A stretch of 52,744 nt of DNA from Thermoplasma sp. Kam2015 (GTDB lineage: Archaea > Thermoplasmatota > Thermoplasmata > Thermoplasmatales > Thermoplasmataceae): NCBI RefSeq assembly GCF_003205235.1, contig NZ_QJSM01000014.1, positions 1 to 52,744 on the forward strand, in the 5' to 3' direction. The position numbers were made by a program, and so were the translations under genes. Shown piece after piece: positions 14,969 to 33,600 of this stretch (position 1 is its first letter; the number at the start of each line of letters is the position of its first letter). Below the pieces are notes generated by a model that saw only the letters and a program-made list of their open reading frames with translations, was not told where the DNA came from and ran no database searches.

Positions 14969-15475
14969 TCAGTCCTTTTTAAATTTTGTTAGGTAAATTG
15001 CAAATAATATTGTTCCGGCTATCAAAATCAATATGCCGATTGATTCTATATAAACATTCGAATATGCAGTTTTTTCAATCTTCGTTGAATAGATCAATGA
15101 AGTATGTGAATTATTTTTTGCCAAAATTTGCACATCATAAGGGATGTTACTATATTGTGCCGGAAGGAATATATTGTAATTCGTTCGTGGTTCCAATGTG
15201 ATATTTTCAATTAACTTTGTACTGATCACGGTTACGCCAGTAAAATTCCTGTACTCTGAAATTATGTAAATACGTATCCATGTGGTGGAATTGCCTGTTG
15301 TTATGGAAAGGTTTGATGGTATTCCAAAGAAGTTATATAACGTAATGTTTGAACTTCCATTGACTGAATAATCTTCGATTGAATAACTATGATATATCGG
15401 ATGCTGGGTATAGGAATAACCTATAATACCAGATCCAAGTAAAATCAGCAATACAGATAACGCTAAGAGCTTCAT
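14969..15475 (-). CDS. Small membrane protein, TM-ectodomain-TM, unknown function
   Basis: 168 aa. An N-terminal hydrophobic helix (about 3-20) is followed by an Asn/Ser/Thr-rich outside domain with several NxS/T sites and a C-terminal helix (about 143-162) ending in KFKKD. I recognise no domain. The layout and size match the protein at 6338-6850, though I see no convincing residue-level similarity. It is AT-richer than the oxidoreductase genes next to it and stands alone before the long gene-poor stretch, which may mean a lineage-specific gene. Convergent with the beta subunit, 4 nt apart. Confidence 0.6.
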   Translation of the reverse strand: MKLLALSVLLILLGSGIIGYSYTQHPIYHSYSIEDYSVNGSSNITLYNFFGIPSNLSITTGNSTTWIRIYIISEYRNFTGVTVISTKLIENITLEPRTNYNIFLPAQYSNIPYDVQILAKNNSHTSLIYSTKIEKTAYSNVYIESIGILILIAGTILFAIYLTKFKKD

Positions 15476-15905: not shown

Positions 15906-16207
15906 TTGTATTAAAGCACCTAGATATTTTATTATCGATTATTAAGAACGATGTTACGTGAAGCGTTAATTATAGAAACCATGATAAAACTGCGTCTTTA
16001 TCTTCCAATCTCGAGCATTAAATTTTGGGCATATAATGAATTTTCGAAATCATAATTGATCTATAAAAGACAATAGAATAATGCTTAAGAGAAAATTATG
16101 GCAATGCATTAGATAACAGAAGTCACGAAAATAATTGCCTTTATCAAGTGCATATATGATGTAATAAGATTTAAATATCTAAATTTACATAAACACCTGC
16201 ATAAATT

Positions 16208-16213
16208 GGAGGA
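16208..16213 (+). promoter_or_regulatory. SD motif deciding the start of the binding-protein gene
   Basis: GGAGGA lies 7 nt before the ATG at 16221. It shows that this ATG, not the in-frame TTG at 16206, is the start. A TTTAAATA box at 16169-16176 would start a transcript with a short leader. Confidence 0.6.
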
Positions 16214-16220
16214 TAAGAAC

Positions 16221-19200
16221 ATGGAAAGTAATCAGCCTAATATTCCTCCTGTTGGACCGAAGACGTCCAATACGAAGTGGTACGCGATAATAACAGTTCT
16301 TGTTGTTGTTATCGTTGTCGTAAGCGTATTGGGCTTCTATCATCCGGTAACAACAGGATCTAGTGCAAAGGTAGTATCTGCCGAATCATCAGCGGTGATA
16401 GGCCAGCCCTATAACCTGACAATACAGACCAATGGAGCTTTTAGCAGTATAACAGTATACTGGGGAGATGCTACGACTTCGATCATACCATATAGCGGTA
16501 GTGATAAGGTAACAGTTTCTCATGTATATAATAATCCGGGGAACTATTATATTTACTATGTCGTGAACTTCGGCGGATCAGTTTATCAGAGCACTAACTC
16601 TCTCATATCGGTTACATCTACTAGCACATCATTACCTAGCGAGGAATCAGTCGGTGATATAGCTCTTGTTCACAGCACTTCTTCACCACTTGTAAATCAG
16701 ACCCAGCTTTTCAAACCGATGACGAATCTATCCTATGTTGTCGGTTACTTCACCCCACCAGCAAATACCAACTATGAGGTTGTTTCTCAGGTGGTATATC
16801 TTTATAAAAATGGATCTCTTGTAGAGAAAGTGAAAATGCCCTATTACTACAATTTCACCGATCAGGCCTACAAGTTGCCACCAAGCCAGGCATATTTAAA
16901 TCTCACCAATCTTACCTCTGGATATTATGAGATAGGCATAGCTACCTATACTGGTAGTCTGGGTTACGAGAGTTTTCCAACAGCAATATACAATAGCACC
17001 ATAATGGAGTATATGAAGAACCAGATGGCTTTCTACAATTACAATTCAACGACTGGTATGACGTCCATGACGCTGGCGAACGGTACTGTAACGTTAATGT
17101 TAGTCAGCCTTGGTTATCTCAAGGGAACTGAGGTTCAAAACTACGCGGGCACTGTTTTAAACTATGTATCACCAACCATTGTCAAATATACCAACGTTGC
17201 AAAATTAAATTATAGTGCGGGGGCATCTGTGAACTATCTTAAGGGGCAGTACGCTAATTTGAGTGCAAACGATTCATTTATGCTAGTTGCAAATTCAAAC
17301 TTGGCTTTTATACCTATGACTAACGTTACATTTGCGTCTGGTTCAATGCTGAATATTTCATCAAATGCATATTACAATATAAGCGCAAAATCTGGCGTCA
17401 TGTTCATGAAGAACGCTACAGCTTATCTCAACCAGACACTAAGATTCCCGAAGGCTAAAGGTAACGGTGTAAATGTCACTGTAAAGGCAGGAAACTCTGT
17501 AATGATCCCCAGTGGAACTACTATAACGTTTACCACGTATGGGAACTACACCTCATCAGGAAAGCTTTACTCTGTTATACCTGGTACACCTGTTACTGGG
17601 CCTATGCTGCTATATTTCAACAATACAACATCGTTTGAGACTTCGTCAATTGAATTAATAGGTGGAAGTGCACTATACTTCGACAATAACACGGAAGTAG
17701 AACTCTCTGAGCATAGTTTAATGGTGTTCGCTGCGGATTCAACCCTGATGAATCTTACATCGGCATCAGTTCTGGGAGGTTCAAAATTGACCTTTGTGAG
17801 CAAAGCTGAAACTGAATTTATGACGAATTCGACTGTAACATATGAGGCATCATATAACACGGTATCTTACGCGGCAGGAAGCGTCATCAACTATCCAGCA
17901 ACATCTGGAGTGGGCCTCAACGCAGAGACCAATTTGACGTATGAAGTGAATACATCGCTGCTATATGTCGCCCCAGTGAATGTAAAGTATTTGGGTCCGA
18001 ACGATACAGTAAATGTGACGCTTACGATACAAACTACTGGAATGACGACATCGCCTATAATAACCGGTGAGCTCAATGCTACGGCTGGCGTATTCCATAC
18101 ATTCTTCTATCAGGATCTGGTTATTGCACCCAGTGCTGCACTCTACACTGTCACAACCGCAGTGACCACTTTCGTAAACGCGGAAGCGGAAACAGGAGCA
18201 TATAAGACGCTGGATGGTGCTATAGCTTATGATACAGTCAGTGGAGAGATACTTGAAAATGTGTATCAGTTCCTAGTGATGTATAACGGATCCTCATCAA
18301 GCTCATTCGTACCACAGCTTGCAGCATATCTTCCGACCACATCTAACGGTGGTATAAATACAAATTACAAGAACTATACAGTTACTACGCCTTGGCATAC
18401 AACATATACGGTCCACATCAAGCCGTATGAGAACTATACGTTCCACATAAGGGCCAACGCGACCTGGCAGAATGGGCAGCCCGTAACAGCATGGGATGTC
18501 TACTATTCATACATAAGGACTTTGCTGTTCGATGCAGGATCGCCAGAGACTCCGGGCTGGATAATAGCCCAGGTGCTCTTACCTGGTAATTACTACACTT
18601 CAAATACGTTCTGGAATATAACCCAGAATATGACCGTCAATAATGCGACGAACAATATAACATTCCACTTCCAGAGACCTTTAACACCTAACTTTGTGTT
18701 CGAACTATTATCCGCAAGTGGAGACTTCGTCATGGATGCAAACTGGATTGTCGCTCATGCAACTGCATCACAGCCAGCCCTTGCATGGAAGGCGGGACTA
18801 ACACCTTACGCATTACCATGGAATGCTACTGGCTTCAACGAATACAAAGCACAGGGGAGTGCGTCCGACTATAACGAGTACTTAGTGAACAATGTTATGG
18901 CTGATGGCCCATACGAGATAGACTACATCATTCCATCATCAGCAGTTGTTCTTGTTAAGAACCCCAACTTCAATCCACCAGGCCCATGGTTCCCAAGGGC
19001 ACATATAGACAAGGTCGTCCTCGAATACATAGGAGAGACCTCAACGAGATACCTGCAGCTGAAATCTGGGTATGCCCAGACTGGCGGAATACCGACCAGT
19101 GATTGGAGTCTGGTTGAAGGTCTTAATGCCTCTCACATAGACTATTATCTATCAAAGCCTTCGCTGAGCATATTCTGGTACAACTTCAATACCAATGTCA

Positions 19201-20168
19201 ACACGACCATGCTATCTACGCTTGACAAGTCAGCGAATATGCCTTCTGCCCTCTTCAGTGTCCTCCAGATAAGGAAGGCCTTTGCCTATGCATACAATGA
19301 GAGTCAGTATCTTAACAAAGATGTAGGAAATGCTGTCTACAATGTTACTTTCGCCATACCCTATGCTGGGATGTTGGATGCTGGAATGCTTGGCTATCAG
19401 TCAATAGCTGAGCTCAATGCAGCGACGAACCATCAGGTACCATACTTTAATCTAAAGCTTGCGACTGAATACTGGCAGGAGGGAGTAGCCACTTGGAATA
19501 AGCTAGTATACAACAACACGCATAGCAGTGCTTACAATATAACGACTGCTTCAGACGGCGATTACGAATATATGGGAGCTCCGCTGAACATACCGATAAT
19601 AATATTCAGCGCGGATCCTGTTGACCTAGCCGGGGCCACACAGTGGGGTACCTATCTCTCCTCATTCATAAAGGGCGCAACCTTCCCGGTGATACCGCTT
19701 GCGTTCCCGAGCATACTGGGATACCAGGTACAGGGTCAGAACCCGATGCCAATATACGAGCTTGGTTGGGCTCCAGACTACCCATACCCGACAGATTACC
19801 TGGGACCGATGGCATTGCCCGAAAATTCTACGACGTATCCTGGTCCGAATGACATGACTCCATATTGGATCGGATACAATACAAGCAATCCTGCAAGGAA
19901 TACTACTGAGGCAAGGTATCTTCAGGAAATGATAGGTTACTATGACAACGGCACAGCTGCATCCAATACCAGCGTTGCGCTGATGTGGTTCCATAAGATG
20001 AACGAGGAGCTCATCAATATGACGTTCTACGTATACATAGAACAGGCCGTCGACTTCCAGATAATATCTGATAAAGTTCCTAAGAGTGTAATGATAGATT
20101 GGGAGCAGAACGTCATGTGGACCATAGGTGCGGGTGATCTACTGTACAACTATCTGTACTATAAATGA
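16221..20168 (+). CDS. Giant membrane-anchored oligopeptide-binding protein (family 5 SBP) with PKD domain
   Basis: 1315 aa, about twice the usual 550-650. Order: a short Pro-rich inside tail, a signal-anchor helix (about 20-40) without lipobox, a PKD-like beta domain (about 55-120, with YWGDATTS and HVYNNPGNYY), a Ser/Thr/Asn-rich beta region of about 450 residues full of short hydrophobic strands and NxS/T sites, then the family 5 solute-binding domain (about 640-1315), recognisable from the AYKTLDGAIAYDTV start, NATWQNGQPVTAWDVYYSY and DGPYEI. It should bind peptides outside and pass them to the permeases encoded next. The T-rich block behind the gene and a TATA box before dppB suggest separate transcription. 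Confidence 0.85.
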   Translation: MESNQPNIPPVGPKTSNTKWYAIITVLVVVIVVVSVLGFYHPVTTGSSAKVVSAESSAVIGQPYNLTIQTNGAFSSITVYWGDATTSIIPYSGSDKVTVSHVYNNPGNYYIYYVVNFGGSVYQSTNSLISVTSTSTSLPSEESVGDIALVHSTSSPLVNQTQLFKPMTNLSYVVGYFTPPANTNYEVVSQVVYLYKNGSLVEKVKMPYYYNFTDQAYKLPPSQAYLNLTNLTSGYYEIGIATYTGSLGYESFPTAIYNSTIMEYMKNQMAFYNYNSTTGMTSMTLANGTVTLMLVSLGYLKGTEVQNYAGTVLNYVSPTIVKYTNVAKLNYSAGASVNYLKGQYANLSANDSFMLVANSNLAFIPMTNVTFASGSMLNISSNAYYNISAKSGVMFMKNATAYLNQTLRFPKAKGNGVNVTVKAGNSVMIPSGTTITFTTYGNYTSSGKLYSVIPGTPVTGPMLLYFNNTTSFETSSIELIGGSALYFDNNTEVELSEHSLMVFAADSTLMNLTSASVLGGSKLTFVSKAETEFMTNSTVTYEASYNTVSYAAGSVINYPATSGVGLNAETNLTYEVNTSLLYVAPVNVKYLGPNDTVNVTLTIQTTGMTTSPIITGELNATAGVFHTFFYQDLVIAPSAALYTVTTAVTTFVNAEAETGAYKTLDGAIAYDTVSGEILENVYQFLVMYNGSSSSSFVPQLAAYLPTTSNGGINTNYKNYTVTTPWHTTYTVHIKPYENYTFHIRANATWQNGQPVTAWDVYYSYIRTLLFDAGSPETPGWIIAQVLLPGNYYTSNTFWNITQNMTVNNATNNITFHFQRPLTPNFVFELLSASGDFVMDANWIVAHATASQPALAWKAGLTPYALPWNATGFNEYKAQGSASDYNEYLVNNVMADGPYEIDYIIPSSAVVLVKNPNFNPPGPWFPRAHIDKVVLEYIGETSTRYLQLKSGYAQTGGIPTSDWSLVEGLNASHIDYYLSKPSLSIFWYNFNTNVNTTMLSTLDKSANMPSALFSVLQIRKAFAYAYNESQYLNKDVGNAVYNVTFAIPYAGMLDAGMLGYQSIAELNAATNHQVPYFNLKLATEYWQEGVATWNKLVYNNTHSSAYNITTASDGDYEYMGAPLNIPIIIFSADPVDLAGATQWGTYLSSFIKGATFPVIPLAFPSILGYQVQGQNPMPIYELGWAPDYPYPTDYLGPMALPENSTTYPGPNDMTPYWIGYNTSNPARNTTEARYLQEMIGYYDNGTAASNTSVALMWFHKMNEELINMTFYVYIEQAVDFQIISDKVPKSVMIDWEQNVMWTIGAGDLLYNYLYYK

Positions 20169-20245: not shown

Positions 20246-20299
20246 CTATGGATTCTATTTGTTGCAAAATTCTTTTATACTGCATTTCGATGAATGCAT

Positions 20300-21391
20300 A
20301 TGGAGTTACGTTTCTTTATCATCAGAAGAATACTCCTCCTGATACCAACATTGATAGGCTTGACTCTATTGACATTTATACTTATGAGAGCTCTTCCGAC
20401 ATCCCTTCTACTTTCTCAATACGTCAATCCTCACAGTACGTTGCCTAGATCGGTTCAGATCGCACATGCCAGGGCATTACTGGGTCTCAATTATCCTGTT
20501 CCTGTTCAATATTTCTTCTATTTGGCTGCTCTCTTTCATGGTCAATGGGGCTTTATGGTAAGTAATTTCTATACTGGCCCTGTTCTGACAGGCATTGAAG
20601 AATTTTTCCCTAACACGCTTCAACTTACGATATTTGCGGTCATACTTTCGGTCTTGATATCAATTCCTTTGGGAACCTATATTGGATCAAAGCCGAATTC
20701 AGTAGCTGATCACGCTGGGAGGATATTCTCACTTGCCGTTTACGCTATGCCAGCTTTTGTTCTTGCGCTTCTTTTTCAGATAGTTTTTGGAAGAGGTGCT
20801 ATTACTGGCAATCCACTTGGCATATTTCCGATATCTGGTACGTTCAATTATGCATTGGTTCCATTTCCGGTCCCATCTTGGTTAGTATCGCCAAACACCA
20901 GTGCTCTTGTAAGCCATCCAACCCATCTTATAATATTTGATGCTCTGATTCATCATGACTATGCAATAGCTTATAGTGGGCTTCTACACATTGTGCTTCC
21001 AGTGCTAACTTTGACGTTAGGGATACTTGCTGGTATTGTAAGATTCCTTAGGGCAGGAATGATGGATAATATGAGGCAAGAATATGTGAAGACCGCTCGC
21101 GCTAAGGGTGTTCCAGAGAAAATCATAATAAAAAGGCATATAAGGAAGAACGCCCTCATTCCAACTGTGACAGTTCTAGGTTTGCTATTTGCCAGTCTTC
21201 TGGGTGGAGTTGTTCTGATTGAGGATGTCTTTGACTATCCAGGGATGGGCCTCCTGGGCATAAATGCAATTACCAGCTATTCTATATATGGCGTGATGGG
21301 CGTAACCCTGGTGTTTGGCCTGGTTCTTGTATTTGCAAATCTTATCGTAGATGTTGTATATGCTTTCCTTGATCCGAGGATAAGGTACTGA
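20300..21391 (+). CDS. dppB: Oligopeptide ABC transporter permease, DppB/OppB type
   Basis: 363 aa. The first membrane helix follows MELRFFIIRRILLLIP, then a long outside loop, then five helices of the BPD_transp_1 domain. The EAA loop that docks on the ATPase is clear (EYVKTARAKGVPEKIIIKRH). The C-terminal LDPRIRY is typical of DppB/OppB. Compared with bacterial relatives it carries an extra outside segment near residues 165-210. I take ATG 20300 rather than 20294 because the TATA box TTTTATAC is centred 24 nt before it. First gene of the dppBCDF transcription unit. Confidence 0.92.
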   Translation: MELRFFIIRRILLLIPTLIGLTLLTFILMRALPTSLLLSQYVNPHSTLPRSVQIAHARALLGLNYPVPVQYFFYLAALFHGQWGFMVSNFYTGPVLTGIEEFFPNTLQLTIFAVILSVLISIPLGTYIGSKPNSVADHAGRIFSLAVYAMPAFVLALLFQIVFGRGAITGNPLGIFPISGTFNYALVPFPVPSWLVSPNTSALVSHPTHLIIFDALIHHDYAIAYSGLLHIVLPVLTLTLGILAGIVRFLRAGMMDNMRQEYVKTARAKGVPEKIIIKRHIRKNALIPTVTVLGLLFASLLGGVVLIEDVFDYPGMGLLGINAITSYSIYGVMGVTLVFGLVLVFANLIVDVVYAFLDPRIRY

Positions 21392-21401
21392 GGTGCAGTA
21401 A

Positions 21402-22361
21402 ATGGCAGAAGTAGAGGTGTTCAGAACAAAGCGTAAAGAAGAAAAAAAGAGATCGGCAAGGCTCGAAGATTTCTTGTTCACTCTTAAATTAATAATGCAT
21501 AACAGGATAGCCTTTGCCGGTCTGATCATAACGCTTGCGTATTTCGTCATAGCAATAATAGATTATATAGATCCGAGATGGCTCGGCGTGTCAAATCTCA
21601 GCGATGCGCTGGCATTTCTTCACGGTAAAGCGTATTATCCCAGCGCTACGCTGGTTACTCCACCAACATTGGCCCATGGCTGGTATTATTGGTTAGGTAC
21701 TACGGAATACGGCATACCTATACTCCCCGATATGCTTGCTGCCTTGAAGGTAGACTTGACGCTTTCCGTCGAGATAGTTCTAACTGGCGCATTGATAGGG
21801 CTCATACTCGGCACGGTATCCGCTTACTATGGCGGTCTGATCGATGAGGCGATGATGAGAATAACTGATATATTCTTCAGTATACCTGCTCTTATTCTTG
21901 CATTGGCCATAGCGTTCATTATAGGCTTGACATTCACAAATATAGCGCTCGCCTTCATCATAGTTTGGTGGCCCATATACGCTAGGTTAGGTAGATCTCT
22001 GACTTTGTCTATCAAGAACATGAATTTCATAGAAGCAGCCAATGCTGCTGGGTCTTCTTCAGCTAGAAATATATTCTATCATGTCATTCCAGGAGTACTC
22101 TCACCATTGTTTGTTCAGTTCTCGCTGGATATAGGTACTGTGGTACAGCTTTTTGCAGCGCTTGAATTCCTGGGTGTGGTTCCTGTAGATCCATTCCTTC
22201 CTGAACTTGGAAGGATGATGGTCTGGGGCGAGACCTATCTGATATATGGCAAATGGTGGGCTGTTATTATACCTGCTATATTCCTAATGATTTTTACAAT
22301 ATCAGTCAGTTTACTTGGGGACGGTCTTAGAGACGTTCTCGATCCGAGACAGAGGAGATGA
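21402..22361 (+). CDS. dppC: Oligopeptide ABC transporter permease, DppC/OppC type
   Basis: 319 aa. An Arg/Lys-rich cytoplasmic start (FRTKRKEEKKRSARLEDF) leads into helix 1, followed by an outside loop and five helices. The EAA loop reads EAANAAGSSSARNIFYHVIP. The C-terminus GDGLRDVLDPRQRR is the family ending. It pairs with the DppB-type permease as the other half of the pore. It begins 10 nt after dppB and its stop overlaps the dppD start by 4 bases (ATGA), showing translational coupling. Confidence 0.92.
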   Translation: MAEVEVFRTKRKEEKKRSARLEDFLFTLKLIMHNRIAFAGLIITLAYFVIAIIDYIDPRWLGVSNLSDALAFLHGKAYYPSATLVTPPTLAHGWYYWLGTTEYGIPILPDMLAALKVDLTLSVEIVLTGALIGLILGTVSAYYGGLIDEAMMRITDIFFSIPALILALAIAFIIGLTFTNIALAFIIVWWPIYARLGRSLTLSIKNMNFIEAANAAGSSSARNIFYHVIPGVLSPLFVQFSLDIGTVVQLFAALEFLGVVPVDPFLPELGRMMVWGETYLIYGKWWAVIIPAIFLMIFTISVSLLGDGLRDVLDPRQRR

Positions 22362-23932
22362 TGATGATTCAGGAGGAACAAACTAAGGAAAGAGAAGTTG
22401 AACCTGTCGTGAAGGTTTCTAACCTCGTGACGCAGTTCTTTACATACAAAGGAATTGTTAAGGCTCTTGATGGGGTCTCATTTGAGATAAAACCAGGTGA
22501 GATACTCGGGCTTGTGGGTGAGAGTGGTTGCGGTAAAAGTGTCACTGCAACCTCTATCATGGATCTCATACCGGATCCACCCGGTAGAATAATATCTGGT
22601 TCGATTTATATAGATGGCTTCAATACATTGGCGGATCTCGACAGGCAGGCTAAAATAATCATAAAATCAGAGACAAATGTAAAGGTAAAGAGAAATAAAC
22701 GTTATATTAAAAGGCACAACTTTATAATGTCTCATATAAGGGGCAATAAGATCTCTATGATATTCCAAGAGCCTTCATTATCAATGAATCCAGTTATGAG
22801 AATAGGCGATCAGATCATTGAGGCCATCCTTTTGCATAGCAAAATAGAGATCGCTGATAGTATCATAAGAAGAGAGACCATGACAGATCAGGATATTCAG
22901 AAATTCTACGATGAAGCAATAAAGATAAAGAAGCATTTGGATCTGAGGAGATTTGTGCATCAGTGGTCTCAGGATTATGGAGTAGCGGAGGCAGAGGACG
23001 GCCTGATAGAGATCATTGAAAGGAACGATCAGAACGCAATGCAGGAACTTAGAAATATAATAGATGAGCAGAAGACAAAGATAAATCTCAAATATATACA
23101 GCAGGAAAGAGAATATGAAAGATATAACAACATGCTATTTGACCTGAATCTTCAATTGCTTGAGGCTGAGAGCAGAAATGATGCGCTGAAGATCAATGAA
23201 CTGCGCAGCCAGATAAAGAGAGTGCAGGCTTATATACGATCCAGATTCACTGGATATAGATTCATCAAGAGGTTCATCGGAAGGAAGATAGAGGAACCAT
23301 TTAGAAAGGAGGCCAGAAGAAGGGCACTGGAACTACTTAAGCTGGTTAACATTGCAGGTCCTGATCGCGTCATAAACTCATATCCACATGAGCTGAGCGG
23401 CGGAATGCTGCAGCGATCCATGATAGCTATGGCTCTATCATCGAATCCGAAGATCCTCATAGCAGATGAACCAACAACTGCCCTTGATGTTACTACTCAG
23501 GCTCAGATTCTTGATATCATGAAGGATCTCAACAGGGTTACCAAAACATCAATACTATTCATTACGCATGACCTGGCAGTGATAGCTGAAATGTGCCATC
23601 GTGTTGCTGTTATGTATGCCGGCAATATAGTTGAGGAGGCACCGGTTAGAGAGATATTCAAGAATCCGAAGCACCCATATACAGTAGGCCTGTTGAAGGC
23701 CATACCGAGACCAGATGTTAAGGTTAACAAGTTTGAGAAACTGGAATCCATAAAGGGATCTGTACCAAACCTGATAAATCCGCCATCCGGATGCAGGTTC
23801 AATCCTAGATGCCCCTTTAAGATGGATATATGCGAAAGAGAAAAACCAAAGCTTGTGGACATAGGTAATGGCCATAAGGTTGCGTGCTTCTTATTCGAAA
23901 ATCAGGGTGGAACCAAAAAGGAGGCGGAATGA
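22358..23932 (+). CDS. dppD: Oligopeptide ABC transporter ATPase, DppD type, with long coiled-coil insertion
   Basis: 524 aa against 320-340 for normal DppD. Walker A GESGCGKS (54-61), Q-loop FQEP (136-139), signature LSGGMLQR (346-353), Walker B ILIADEP (366-372), switch His404. Between Q-loop and signature, where the helical subdomain lies, there is an extra charged segment of roughly 150 residues (about 165-320) with long Glu/Lys/Arg-rich helices predicted to coil. The C-terminal oligo_HPY region has four cysteines (479, 485, 492, 510) like those that hold an iron-sulfur cluster in relatives. It powers peptide import with DppF. GAGGAG before the start is a good SD motif. Confidence 0.92.
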   Translation: MMMIQEEQTKEREVEPVVKVSNLVTQFFTYKGIVKALDGVSFEIKPGEILGLVGESGCGKSVTATSIMDLIPDPPGRIISGSIYIDGFNTLADLDRQAKIIIKSETNVKVKRNKRYIKRHNFIMSHIRGNKISMIFQEPSLSMNPVMRIGDQIIEAILLHSKIEIADSIIRRETMTDQDIQKFYDEAIKIKKHLDLRRFVHQWSQDYGVAEAEDGLIEIIERNDQNAMQELRNIIDEQKTKINLKYIQQEREYERYNNMLFDLNLQLLEAESRNDALKINELRSQIKRVQAYIRSRFTGYRFIKRFIGRKIEEPFRKEARRRALELLKLVNIAGPDRVINSYPHELSGGMLQRSMIAMALSSNPKILIADEPTTALDVTTQAQILDIMKDLNRVTKTSILFITHDLAVIAEMCHRVAVMYAGNIVEEAPVREIFKNPKHPYTVGLLKAIPRPDVKVNKFEKLESIKGSVPNLINPPSGCRFNPRCPFKMDICEREKPKLVDIGNGHKVACFLFENQGGTKKEAE

Positions 23933-25365
23933 TGGAAGATGAGATTATACTATACGTCTCGCACCTGAAGAAATATTTCGATATTCCGAATGGACTTGGA
24001 AGAAACCTTGGGTATGTCAAGGCAGTGGATGACGTCACATTTACCGTGAAGAAAGGTGAAACGCTGGGAATCGTTGGTGAAACTGGATGCGGAAAGACAA
24101 CCCTTGGTCGAACCATACTTCAACTGACTAAGGCCACGGACGGCAACGTTTATTTCCATCTGGATCAGGATATAATGCGAAGAGCAATAGAGATGGAGGA
24201 AGAATACTATTCTCTCAATCAGAAGAAGGAAAAAACTGAAGAAGATAAGAGAAGAATAAAGCAGATAGAAGAGGAACTAATACCGTTTAGGAAAAAGTAT
24301 TCGCTTACAAAGATGAAGCCTAAGGAGATCAGAGAATACAGGAAATACATGCAGCCGGTTTTTCAGGATCCATTTTCGTCGCTGGATCCGAGAAAACTCA
24401 TAAAGGACATCATAGCAGAGCCCATGAGACTTCTCACGAAGATGAGCAAGGACGAAATAATGGAAAAGGAGAAGGAACTTATCAACGAGATAGGGCTAAG
24501 CGAAGACCATCTCTACAGATTCCCCCATGAGTTTAGTGGAGGGCAGAGACAGCGTATAGGAATAGCGAGGGCAATATCTATTGAACCAGATATGCTGGTT
24601 CTTGACGAGCCAACTTCTGCTCTTGATGTTTCTGTGCAGGCCCAGATACTCAACATGCTCAAGGAGATCCAGCAGAGAAGAAATCTCACATACCTCTTCA
24701 TCTCGCATCATCTTAACGTGATAAGGAGTATGTCCGATCGCGTGATGGTGATGTACCTCGGAAAGGTAGCCGAGATAGCTGAGACGCACACGCTGTTCAC
24801 CGAGATGTTGCATCCATATACGAAGGCACTGTTATCTGCCATACCGATACCGGACCCTGAGACAAAGAAACAGCATATCATTCTTGAAGGTGAAATACCG
24901 AGTCCAGTGAACCCACCGAAGGGATGCTACTTCCATAACAGATGTCCTGAGGCCATGAGAAACTGCGGATGGTCTCCTAGGGATCTGTCTGAGCCGATAA
25001 GAGATGCATTTGATGTGTTCAGGAATCCAGAAGCAGAGGCTCTACCTGAAATCTCAAAGATCGTTATTGACGAAGATAACAACGTTCTCCATGTCAGATT
25101 TTCAAACGTCGTTCAAGAAAAAGATAGAATAATGTCTGTAGTCAAAGGGATAATAGACAAGGAATCGCTGGGCAAACGTGGCATAATGTACAAGGCCATC
25201 GAAAATATTTCATGGGAACCGGATGGAAAGTCGATTGCGATCAAGATGATCGAACCAGATATTCCAAAGCTGATAGAAGCCAAGAAAGATCACTATGTTG
25301 CCTGCCTTCTTTACGAGGTCCCCGTCAAGGAGGAACTGACAAATGCGCCAAGTACAGATAATTGA
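23929..25365 (+). CDS. dppF: Oligopeptide ABC transporter ATPase, DppF type, with two insertions
   Basis: 478 aa from the ATG overlapping the dppD stop (GGAGG just upstream; ATG 23932 also fits). Walker A GETGCGKT (50-57), Q-loop FQDP (145-148), signature FSGGQ (202-206), Walker B MLVLDEP (222-228), ISHH switch (259-261). An extra charged helical segment of about 55 residues (82-140) precedes the Q-loop. In the C-terminal region the first three cysteines (333, 339, 346) are normal, but the fourth (459) is separated by 112 residues that form an alpha/beta-looking insertion; in DppD the spacing is 17. It forms the second ATPase of the importer. Confidence 0.92.
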   Translation: MMEDEIILYVSHLKKYFDIPNGLGRNLGYVKAVDDVTFTVKKGETLGIVGETGCGKTTLGRTILQLTKATDGNVYFHLDQDIMRRAIEMEEEYYSLNQKKEKTEEDKRRIKQIEEELIPFRKKYSLTKMKPKEIREYRKYMQPVFQDPFSSLDPRKLIKDIIAEPMRLLTKMSKDEIMEKEKELINEIGLSEDHLYRFPHEFSGGQRQRIGIARAISIEPDMLVLDEPTSALDVSVQAQILNMLKEIQQRRNLTYLFISHHLNVIRSMSDRVMVMYLGKVAEIAETHTLFTEMLHPYTKALLSAIPIPDPETKKQHIILEGEIPSPVNPPKGCYFHNRCPEAMRNCGWSPRDLSEPIRDAFDVFRNPEAEALPEISKIVIDEDNNVLHVRFSNVVQEKDRIMSVVKGIIDKESLGKRGIMYKAIENISWEPDGKSIAIKMIEPDIPKLIEAKKDHYVACLLYEVPVKEELTNAPSTDN

Positions 25366-30517: not shown

Positions 30518-30774
30518 AACCTTATACTCATAAATCAGAACATTTCCTTGAGGATATGCTGAAACGCTGATGGAAAAATCAAAGAATTAACGATTATCCT
30601 TGAAGAATCATACGTTATGCTATCAATGGTGTCAAAAATATTGATGGCTAGGTATCTTCTAAATTGATCGTTAATGATACATTGACAAATGATGTCAGGG
30701 AGGGGCAATGATGCAGAATGATCACAATATTTATAAGAAAAGTTTTGTTTAGCCCAAAAAAAGGGAGGATATCG

Positions 30775-33600
30775 GTGAACAAATCTACAATTGCTATTGC
30801 TATTGTTTCAATAATAGCATTGAGTTCCCTTGCGGGAATGAGCTTTGCCATGACGCCACAGGCTGGCTATGCCAATATAACGGTATCGTATTATGGAGGG
30901 CCAGCAAAGGTACCGGTAGAGGTACTCAATTTCAATGGAGTTGTTGTGGCGTCAGGAAGCGGCCCGCATCTTAATGTTTCTCTTCCATATGGTAAGTATT
31001 ACGTCCAGGTTCCAAACTATATAGGGCCGGGTTCCACAGGAAATTTCACGATATATTATGAGAGATCAGTGGCATTCAATCTCACCTCGCCATATATGAA
31101 CGTGCCAGTCTCGTTGACCGCGTTCCCCACCTATGGAATTAACGTTACATTCTCCGGCATTCCGAACGGGGCAGTAGTGCAGTTCCAGACACAGGATGGA
31201 TTTGTGTTCAACCAGAGCAAGGTATTCACTAAAACCTACACATTCCAGCTTCCCATAAAAGTGCCTTTCTATGCCGTGTTGAATTACGCAGGTACAAATT
31301 CAACGTATCTGGAGGATCTCAGCAGTTCAACGGCAACCTTAACTATAAGTCCAATCACCGCTACATTCTATGGTTATCCAAATGTGAATTCTGGAACTGT
31401 GGTGGCCATCGATCCTGTAGCACCTTATAACTATACGGTTTCGCATTTTACAAATGGTTCATTTGCCATTTATGCTCCAGCAACGGATATAATACTGGTT
31501 GAATCGCCAGGATATCAGCCGTATGTTTTCAAATCGGCCAAAAACGGAGCATCGATTACCCTGACCAAGGATGTTTCGAATGTGTACTATAACTACAGCA
31601 TAAGCCAGAACCTTCAGACGATGTACCAGAACATAACATTTCAGCTGAATAATGGAACGGCGTTCCCCAACTATTTCCCCAATTCAAGCGTTGGATCTCT
31701 ATACTGGCAGATGAAGCTTGACGGAATAACAACAGCGGCACTTCAGAAATATTTCTATGGGCTCGCACAGAATTACACATCTAGGACATTTCTTGTAAAT
31801 GGCGTTTATTATAATATAACTGGGGCGCCAACCGTAAAGGTATACAGCACTGATAACTCAGTCCTGGCCTATGTAAATGCCACATACAGAAACATATCGT
31901 CCGTCTCAGGCCTGAGCTCGGTTAATATTTACGTGTATGGTACTCAGAACACGCCTGGTTCAATACAGTACAATTTCAATCTGACATACCATAACAACAG
32001 CCTTGCAGTATCCTCGTCCAATGTTCCTCTGATATCCTCATACCGTTATGTGAAAATATCACCTCTCTCTGCAAACACAATGGTAAACCTGAAGTTTTCA
32101 CCAGTACAGAAACCAGTGATATCGAACAATACCTACACGCTGTTCTGGAAGAACATGGTGTCAAAGAACTATATCCTGAACAATAATGCGTCTAATGCAT
32201 ACTACGTGGTACCGCTGAACCAGACGGTTTATATAAATGCATCCACGGCCTACTTCAATCCAGTAACAAATTCCAACGATTATACTCGGGCCAACTTCAC
32301 ATGGACCATAAATGGAACAACTGAATATGGCTACAATGTCTCTTACAAATTCTATGACAGAACCAATTCTGTCAGCGTAAGGGTGATGAGCCCATCTGGT
32401 GGTGTGGCCTATTCTAATTTCACAGTTGTAGGACTGAGCAACACAACACCCCTCACCGCCTTTAAATTCTCTGCATCCCTTAATGGAAAGGCCATAGGTG
32501 TATCACAGCAATATTACTCCGCTAACAATACGTATTTCATATCGCTGAGCGTTCCTCAGTCAGCAAGTGTGAGCTACAGCCTATATGGCACATCCCTCAA
32601 GGTATCATCATACAGCGTCTTTCTGATGTACAGCTGGCACTTCCCAGGCCAGACCTTCATAGGGCAGAACGTATCTTACGCATTCCAGCATCCGAGCATT
32701 GCACCAGGCTATCTGAATCAGTATGCGTATGCAAACGTTACCAGTGAAGTCGGAAACACAACGCACGTTATAATGCATGTGTACGTCAATGATACGACAC
32801 CCCCATCTGCTACTTTCTTCATGACCTACAACGGAACTTACATAAAGAACCCGATAGCCGGTAAGACCATAGTGATAAGCGCAAACAACACAACGGATCC
32901 GTACTATCCATTCAGTCAGCTCAGGTTCCAGTGGAAGATAGAATATGTGAATGGAACCGTCGCCCAGCCTTCTTCTACAACCTTTACGAATATAACATCT
33001 ATGAACATGAGCTATCTCGTTATACAGTTCAACACCGTTAACAGCATGATAGTGTCATTGAACGTGACAAATCCATCCGGCATATCTGGATATTACAATA
33101 AAACGGTCTCCATGATCGTACAGAGTCCGAGATTGGTTGTGAACTCAATATACTCACCAAAAGCAGCATATCAGGGTTCCTCCGCCAAGGTTTATGTTAA
33201 CGTGTCTAACCTCGGGACTGTCAATGCATACGATGTCAACATAACTCTGTATGTGAATGGCAAGGTGGTTGGATCTACAACCGTGAGCGAGATCAAGGCA
33301 GGCAAGTCATACAATGCAACGGTCACTTGGGTGCCACCAACATCAGGAAAGATATCGCTTTATGCTACTGCCGAGGTTGGAAATGAACCTTCAGCATTCG
33401 TGAAGGCCGGTGCACTGACACAGGAGGTCAGCGTGAATCCGCCCGCCTACAGGACGCCTCTTATAGTTGTCTCGGTAATAGTCGTGCTTGTGATAATCGT
33501 CTACGTATATTACAGGCTAAGGTCAGGTGGCGGTAAATCAACTCAGCAGAAGACAACACAGCCAAAGACTGAACTGCCGAAGCAGCAGAAGAAGAAATAA
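30775..33600 (+). CDS. Large cell-surface protein with signal peptide, CARDB-like domain and C-terminal anchor
   Basis: 941 aa from the GTG at 30775. That start has GGGAGGAT 5 nt before it and gives a clean signal peptide (NKSTIAIAIVSIIALSSLAG, then AMTP); the upstream in-frame ATG at 30718 lies before the probable TATA box (ATTTATAA near 30730). The exported part is Ser/Thr/Asn/Tyr-rich with dozens of NxS/T sites, suggesting heavy glycosylation. A CARDB/Ig-like module (about 785-890, VSNLGTVNAYDVNITLYVNG) precedes a single membrane helix (895-913) and a Lys/Gln-rich cytoplasmic tail. Probably a surface or adhesion protein; function unknown. Confidence 0.8.
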   Translation: MNKSTIAIAIVSIIALSSLAGMSFAMTPQAGYANITVSYYGGPAKVPVEVLNFNGVVVASGSGPHLNVSLPYGKYYVQVPNYIGPGSTGNFTIYYERSVAFNLTSPYMNVPVSLTAFPTYGINVTFSGIPNGAVVQFQTQDGFVFNQSKVFTKTYTFQLPIKVPFYAVLNYAGTNSTYLEDLSSSTATLTISPITATFYGYPNVNSGTVVAIDPVAPYNYTVSHFTNGSFAIYAPATDIILVESPGYQPYVFKSAKNGASITLTKDVSNVYYNYSISQNLQTMYQNITFQLNNGTAFPNYFPNSSVGSLYWQMKLDGITTAALQKYFYGLAQNYTSRTFLVNGVYYNITGAPTVKVYSTDNSVLAYVNATYRNISSVSGLSSVNIYVYGTQNTPGSIQYNFNLTYHNNSLAVSSSNVPLISSYRYVKISPLSANTMVNLKFSPVQKPVISNNTYTLFWKNMVSKNYILNNNASNAYYVVPLNQTVYINASTAYFNPVTNSNDYTRANFTWTINGTTEYGYNVSYKFYDRTNSVSVRVMSPSGGVAYSNFTVVGLSNTTPLTAFKFSASLNGKAIGVSQQYYSANNTYFISLSVPQSASVSYSLYGTSLKVSSYSVFLMYSWHFPGQTFIGQNVSYAFQHPSIAPGYLNQYAYANVTSEVGNTTHVIMHVYVNDTTPPSATFFMTYNGTYIKNPIAGKTIVISANNTTDPYYPFSQLRFQWKIEYVNGTVAQPSSTTFTNITSMNMSYLVIQFNTVNSMIVSLNVTNPSGISGYYNKTVSMIVQSPRLVVNSIYSPKAAYQGSSAKVYVNVSNLGTVNAYDVNITLYVNGKVVGSTTVSEIKAGKSYNATVTWVPPTSGKISLYATAEVGNEPSAFVKAGALTQEVSVNPPAYRTPLIVVSVIVVLVIIVYVYYRLRSGGGKSTQQKTTQPKTELPKQQKKK

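Follow-up and report, generated by a model that had tools for sequence, protein, structure and literature searches.

An eight-residue repeat at a hairpin tip of a long peptide-binding protein from Thermoplasma

The Thermoplasmatales, which inhabit hot acid, have neither a wall nor a paracrystalline S-layer. In Thermoplasma sp. Kam2015, a stretch of 52,744 nucleotides (contig NZ_QJSM01000014.1, the whole of which is called the window here) encodes, in one uninterrupted open frame at 16221-20168 on the forward strand, a peptide-binding protein of 1315 amino acids. Where does the great length of this receptor come from, and what could the additional part do at the surface of such a cell? We found that the binding domain is ordinary and that the length is owed to an insert alone, a stretch of 366 residues built from eight-residue units (octads) that sits at the tip of a beta-hairpin. 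The protein is laid out as follows, all on the forward strand:

16221..16274 (+), cytoplasmic N-terminus, residues 1-18 (ATG after GGAGGA; translation)
16275..16343 (+), N-terminal transmembrane signal anchor, residues 19-41 (19-residue hydropathy maximum of 2.95 at residues 21-39)
16353..16634 (+), PKD domain, residues 45-138 (motifs WGD at 81 and HVYNNPGNYY at 101)
16635..16964 (+), second immunoglobulin (Ig)-like domain, Ig2, first part, residues 139-248 (conserved in the family; AlphaFold2 predicted local distance difference test score, pLDDT, mostly 78-93)
16965..18062 (+), octad-repeat insert, residues 249-614, at the tip of the last Ig2 beta-hairpin (alignment boundaries, lag-8 z score, period scan)
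18063..18194 (+), Ig2 closing strand and linker, residues 615-658 (adjoins residue ~248 in insert-less relatives; strand paired in the AlphaFold2 model)
18195..20165 (+), family 5 oligopeptide-binding domain, residues 659-1315 (PF00496, Foldseek match to OppA, Asp419 equivalent)

Domain layout and the site of the insert

A preliminary description, made from the sequence alone, had read the gene as a family 5 solute-binding protein (SBP), and our searches bear this out: PF00496 matches residues 738-1202 at 107.5 bits against a curated cut-off of 32.4 (E 1.1e-30) and is the sole Pfam domain detected in the window protein. The domain is also complete. AlphaFold2 modelled it mostly at a pLDDT above 85, Foldseek aligned the model with the three-domain cluster-C fold of Bacillus subtilis OppA (8arn, E 8.6e-24, TMt 0.81), and D1186, invariant in an eight-sequence alignment, corresponds to OppA Asp419, the residue that binds the peptide N-terminus. 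By sequence and model, the window protein is the receptor of an Opp/Dpp-type ATP-binding cassette (ABC) importer, with peptide binding predicted. It shares the full fold, the Asp419 equivalent and the Opp/Dpp operon with OppA and DppA (PF00496); these, however, are periplasmic or lipoproteins, whereas the window protein combines an N-terminal helix anchor with a PKD/Ig spacer and the octad insert. A single further family 5 SBP was found in the genome (L001, 1060-2886, reverse strand, ~609 residues), and its topology is the opposite one, with an N-terminal signal, a C-terminal anchor helix and no PKD/Ig spacer. Like it, Sulfolobus OppA-type SBPs are family 5 SBPs of an acidophilic archaeon.

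The N-terminal signal anchor proposed earlier was likewise recovered at residues 19-41, and a hydropathy scan of the whole protein revealed no comparable hydrophobic segment at the SBP C-terminus. The PKD domain that had been placed between membrane and ligand domain is recognizable by its WGD and HVYNNPGNYY motifs and is assigned at the family level: Pfam PKD_4 is matched by 18 of 48 family members (best E 5.9e-5) and the family profile retrieves a solved PKD domain (4xed, E 2e-4); the window's own copy, searched by itself, matches no Pfam PKD entry at E <= 1. Ig2 (residues 139-248 and 615-658) is found in nearly all relatives, and in a structural search with a homologue model the PKD and Ig2 pair resembled tandem FnIII/Ig structures. 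Sequence and models thus make these two domains the spacer between membrane and SBP. By alignment, the same PKD, Ig2 and SBP architecture also occurs in archaea beyond the wall-less group, at Thermocladium, Nitrososphaeria and Marsarchaeota loci, and is therefore not an adaptation to wall loss. Of the earlier suggestion of an adaptation to wall-less life, the setting in an S-layer-less lineage stands (the nearest named relatives are Thermoplasma sp.) and the domain layout falls away.

What had been described as a 450-residue beta region does contain a beta-repeat part, yet it is not a single region but Ig2 interrupted by the hairpin insert. Same-genus relatives align contiguously with query residues 1-247 and 615-1314 and have no insert. 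The insertion site is identical in 80 aligned proteins, with the insert-less pattern 'GYYxIxxxTYTAxV-NxTT-GxxN'. At this tip, about 60 relatives carry a loop of 0-27 residues, 17 proteins carry 164-367 residues, and two orthologues from the same genus, set in the same operon, show a loop of ~5 residues where the insert would be. Could the insert be a rigid stalk, placed in series to lift the binding domain off the membrane? It does lie between anchor and SBP in the chain and is beta-rich and repetitive; however, it ends on two paired strands of one hairpin and so branches off rather than standing in line, and the same-genus orthologues manage without it. We hold a stalk to be very improbable. 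The earlier view that the repeat region sets the distance of the binding domain has to be given up, as the insert forms a side branch and most orthologues have only the ~5-residue loop.

Two further possibilities were ruled out. The insert is no part of the binding domain, because the PF00496 match and the OppA fold begin after residue 659; nor does a frameshift or assembly artefact explain the protein length, since the reading frame runs through the insert and a second genome has it at 89% identity, although the copy in that genome is broken further downstream at an assembly run of N.

The octad repeat and its predicted fold

The short repeated strands pointed out previously (YAAGS, FASGS, FVSKA) proved to be units of a strong eight-residue repeat with the consensus [VLI]-T-[YF]-x-[NAS]-[GN]-[TS]-N, of which the window insert holds 32-33 complete copies. 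BLOSUM autocorrelation peaked at lag 8, with a z score of 6.4 for the window insert and 12.2 for twelve inserts combined, and had harmonics at lags 16, 24, 32 and 40. A scan with circular models gave log-likelihood gains of 529 at period 8, 342 at period 9 and 230 at period 7. The repeat is restricted to the insert, as no octad periodicity was detected in the PKD, Ig2 or SBP domains. Compared with the insert profile, the window insert aligns in three pieces that overlap (1-144, 84-165 and 128-227), a sign of internal expansion.

Structure prediction of this middle region, which the preliminary description had proposed as a check, came out in favour of regular strands in a homologue and with low confidence in the window protein. 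In the AlphaFold2 model of the latter, a long ribbon of two strands (residues 234-264 with 597-618) carries the insert away from the Ig domain. Strands succeed each other every 6-9 residues (~8) in the homologue whose array is the most regular, at block-mean pLDDT values of 80-92. The models support a regular beta array, most likely stacked into a slender beta-solenoid or beta-meander that would rise from the ribbon; the regular short strands and short turns expected of a beta-solenoid are found in the octad period and the homologue model, and with low confidence in the window. With strand layers 4.8 angstrom apart, 366 residues would roughly span between 7 nm (three octads per coil) and 22 nm (single-layer meander); the autocorrelation expressed no clear preference for coils of 16 or 24 residues.

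Several points weigh against this picture. Most of the window insert, namely its middle, is modelled at a pLDDT below 50; the model outputs, being secondary-structure strings, do not allow parallel and antiparallel strands to be told apart; and the array found no match among solved structures, the Foldseek lists being filled by Ig-domain matches. Two profile matches point to right-handed beta-helix proteins: among PDB profiles only the A-region of the yeast adhesin Awp14 came up, below significance (E 0.38), and class-wide the one match beyond the SBP family was to a Beta_helix/NosD protein (E 4e-5 per genome). From these right-handed beta-helices the insert differs by its strict octad period and by having no match to Pfam Beta_helix/NosD. 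A solenoid fold is likely but unproven.

An eight-residue repeat with an aliphatic lead position is also known from the triple-stranded beta-helix of phage T4 gp5 and VgrG spikes, where it reads VxGxxxxx in gp5 (PMC4576200). The octads might accordingly form an intertwined, oligomeric beta-helix by which the insert clusters receptors, and the low confidence of the monomeric window model would fit such an arrangement. In the window octad, however, the glycine lies at +5 from the aliphatic position instead of +2, the repeat is sequon-rich and housed in a receptor hairpin loop, and the homologue array is modelled confidently as a monomer, which makes an oligomeric helix improbable in our judgement.

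Repeat slippage could, alternatively, have produced neutral low-complexity padding with no stable fold or role, as the erratic presence of the insert among close relatives and the low predicted confidence of much of the window array might suggest. Against this, the octad pattern and its hydrophobic positions are kept across distant genera, the inserts have a conserved C-terminal edge motif and reach profile E-values down to 1e-67, and the homologue model contains confident strands. Moreover, the window insert is 89% identical to its counterpart in the second genome at the amino-acid level at a third-position identity of ~71%, which points to protein-level constraint. We consider neutral padding a poor explanation, as improbable as the stalk.

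Occurrence among relatives and possible role at the cell surface

The insert-bearing proteins do not form one clade: a minimum of six changes of insert state is required on the tree, and a single clade was rejected by the approximately unbiased (AU) test on a 23-protein subset (p-AU ~1e-48). All the same, the inserts have their C-terminal edge in common ([NT]xTYNxNTSLxYTNPxTxVxY...NVTVT), and therefore they probably share one origin, with repeated loss or transfer. Judged from the sequences, array presence and repeat number shift readily between close species. The rest of the system hardly moves with it: the window SBP is 92% identical to that of an insert-less Thermoplasma relative, and the permeases are 95-97% identical to those of an insert-less same-genus relative. 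That SBP and permeases are nearly unchanged with the insert present or absent we counted in favour of an optional add-on.

In profile searches the insert was limited to the window protein's own family, unlike the PKD, Ig2 and SBP architecture. The preliminary description had raised the question of distribution among Thermoplasmatales; an octad match at E <= 0.01 was obtained in only 15 of the 117 genomes of the order, one of them marginal. Beyond the SBP inserts, the octad profile yielded one marginal match only, to a serine/threonine-rich secreted protein (E 0.005). The array cannot, given these numbers, be a general requirement of wall-less life, a further count against the coat function discussed below. 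A single-contig genome of the genus (G001) gave no match to the window protein at all.

Individual loci vary further. In genome G003 the orthologue (L033:5175-5432) is broken at a run of N, beyond which comes unrelated, AT-rich sequence; either the assembly is at fault or something has been inserted. Clone ASS_A1 (L034-L038, L085, L086, L089-L091) has at least six SBP paralogues, with and without the insert, several of which lack adjacent permease genes (orphan receptors).

The insert is rich in potential glycosylation sites. In the window protein it contains 22 N-x-S/T sequons against 8.8 expected, and the ectodomain 51 against 20.5. Within the octad frame, sequons concentrate in the turn and the strand start and are rare at the hydrophobic positions. 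The genome also encodes an STT3/AglB oligosaccharyltransferase with WWDYG, and the sequon-packed turns and strand starts together with this enzyme indicate that the array is probably coated with glycans. The short loop of insert-less homologues is very often an N-x-T/S sequon itself (NTT, NST, NGT, NAT), which makes glycosylation of the hairpin tip probable in insert-less proteins as well. The STT3/AglB match (G000:C32:10097-11290, L166) sits in an open frame of 2085 residues, which runs on into a carboxypeptidase-regulatory-like tail; the usual length of STT3/AglB is about half of that.

We lean, by a modest degree, towards the insert being a glycosylated mast or umbrella standing beside the ligand domain. 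The receptor is tethered by its N-terminal helix, with the PKD and Ig-like domains spacing the SBP from the membrane, and the octad array at the tip of the last Ig-like hairpin would project sideways from this spacer. Such a mast would make the coat around an S-layer-less cell thicker and acid-proof and would perhaps hide the receptor from viruses or proteases. Peptide capture would be left to the unchanged SBP domain, the array having no part in ligand binding.

A different role is conceivable for a side branch of this kind, namely that of a fast-evolving recognition or adhesion surface (for polymers, particles or mates) or of a virus receptor or decoy. Repeated gain, loss and length change at one site would be in keeping with it, as would the divergence of the spacer domains, which are 63-66% identical to those of the same relative that has an SBP identity of 90-94%. 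Libraries of adhesins, phages and phage families, however, returned only chance-level single-member matches, and the insert consists mainly of small uncharged Ser, Thr and Asn residues; we rate a recognition surface as rather unlikely. A viral origin of the insert was also considered and found no meaningful phage or PHROG support.

For the glycosylated mast, there is a candidate location. Cryo-tomography of C. divulgatum and O. meridianum has revealed an unordered exterior protein layer of ~20 nm, the constituent proteins of which were not identified (PMC12448462). The insert is possibly part of this exterior layer of Thermoplasmatales; the estimated array size of 7-22 nm is on the order of the layer's thickness (PMC12448462), an agreement that is suggestive only. 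The optional insert may, in other words, help to build the coat that wall-less archaea have in place of an S-layer. Like the surface glycoproteins of Thermoplasma and the exterior layer of Thermoplasmatales, the window protein is a sequon-dense surface protein of an S-layer-less archaeon, here known from sequence. N-glycosylated surface glycoproteins have reportedly been found in T. acidophilum. Another candidate coat glycoprotein, as far as its sequence tells, is encoded in the window at 30718-33600 on the forward strand, a secreted protein of 960 residues with a C-terminal membrane anchor, a CARDB domain and 45 N-x-S/T sites against ~18 expected.

Our literature search for PKD-bearing archaeal SBPs, the octad array or Ta0280 returned no description within a coverage that excludes most subscription papers. 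It is a speculative notion, and one we would give limited credence, that the insert represents a beta-repeat module of a kind not described before, a sequon-dense octad array able to extend itself and to come, go and grow at one hairpin tip of nutrient receptors, by which S-layer-less Thermoplasmatales make transport proteins into building blocks of the exterior layer. In practical terms, the insert-bearing SBPs are concrete candidates for exterior-layer proteins that surface proteomics and glycoproteomics can test. A large beta-repeat array that has repeatedly come or gone at one loop of conserved receptors is, moreover, a natural experiment, useful for studying how repeat folds arise and for constructing beta arrays of tunable length.

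Operon and neighbouring genes

The SBP gene starts at ATG 16221, preceded by the ribosome-binding site GGAGGA, which is itself overlapped by an alternative start further upstream, TTG 16206. It heads an Opp/Dpp operon in which two permeases are followed by two ATPases, a gene order common to Thermoplasma relatives and to the Thermocladium, Marsarchaeota and Nitrososphaeria loci:

16156..16220 (+), probable promoter with a TTTAAATA-like TATA box near 16166, and ribosome-binding site GGAGGA at ~16207 (inferred by reading the sequence)
20294..21391 (+), Opp/Dpp-type permease B (PF00528, E 2.8e-34; PF19300; order kept in relatives)
21402..22361 (+), Opp/Dpp-type permease C (PF00528, E 1.7e-26)
22358..23932 (+), OppD-like ATPase with oligo_HPY tail (PF00005, PF08352; best NCBIfam match OppD, under its cut-off)
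23932..25365 (+), second, OppF-like ATPase with oligo_HPY tail (PF00005, PF08352)

The nearest named records to the window protein are metagenome-assembled genomes of Thermoplasma sp. Upstream, 14969-15475 on the reverse strand encodes a small protein of 168 residues, with a hydrophobic helix at either terminus and several sequons, for which Pfam gave no match. The second ATPase is listed with an open reading frame (23884-25365, forward strand) whose GTG start overlaps the gene before it; translation more likely begins at ATG 23932.

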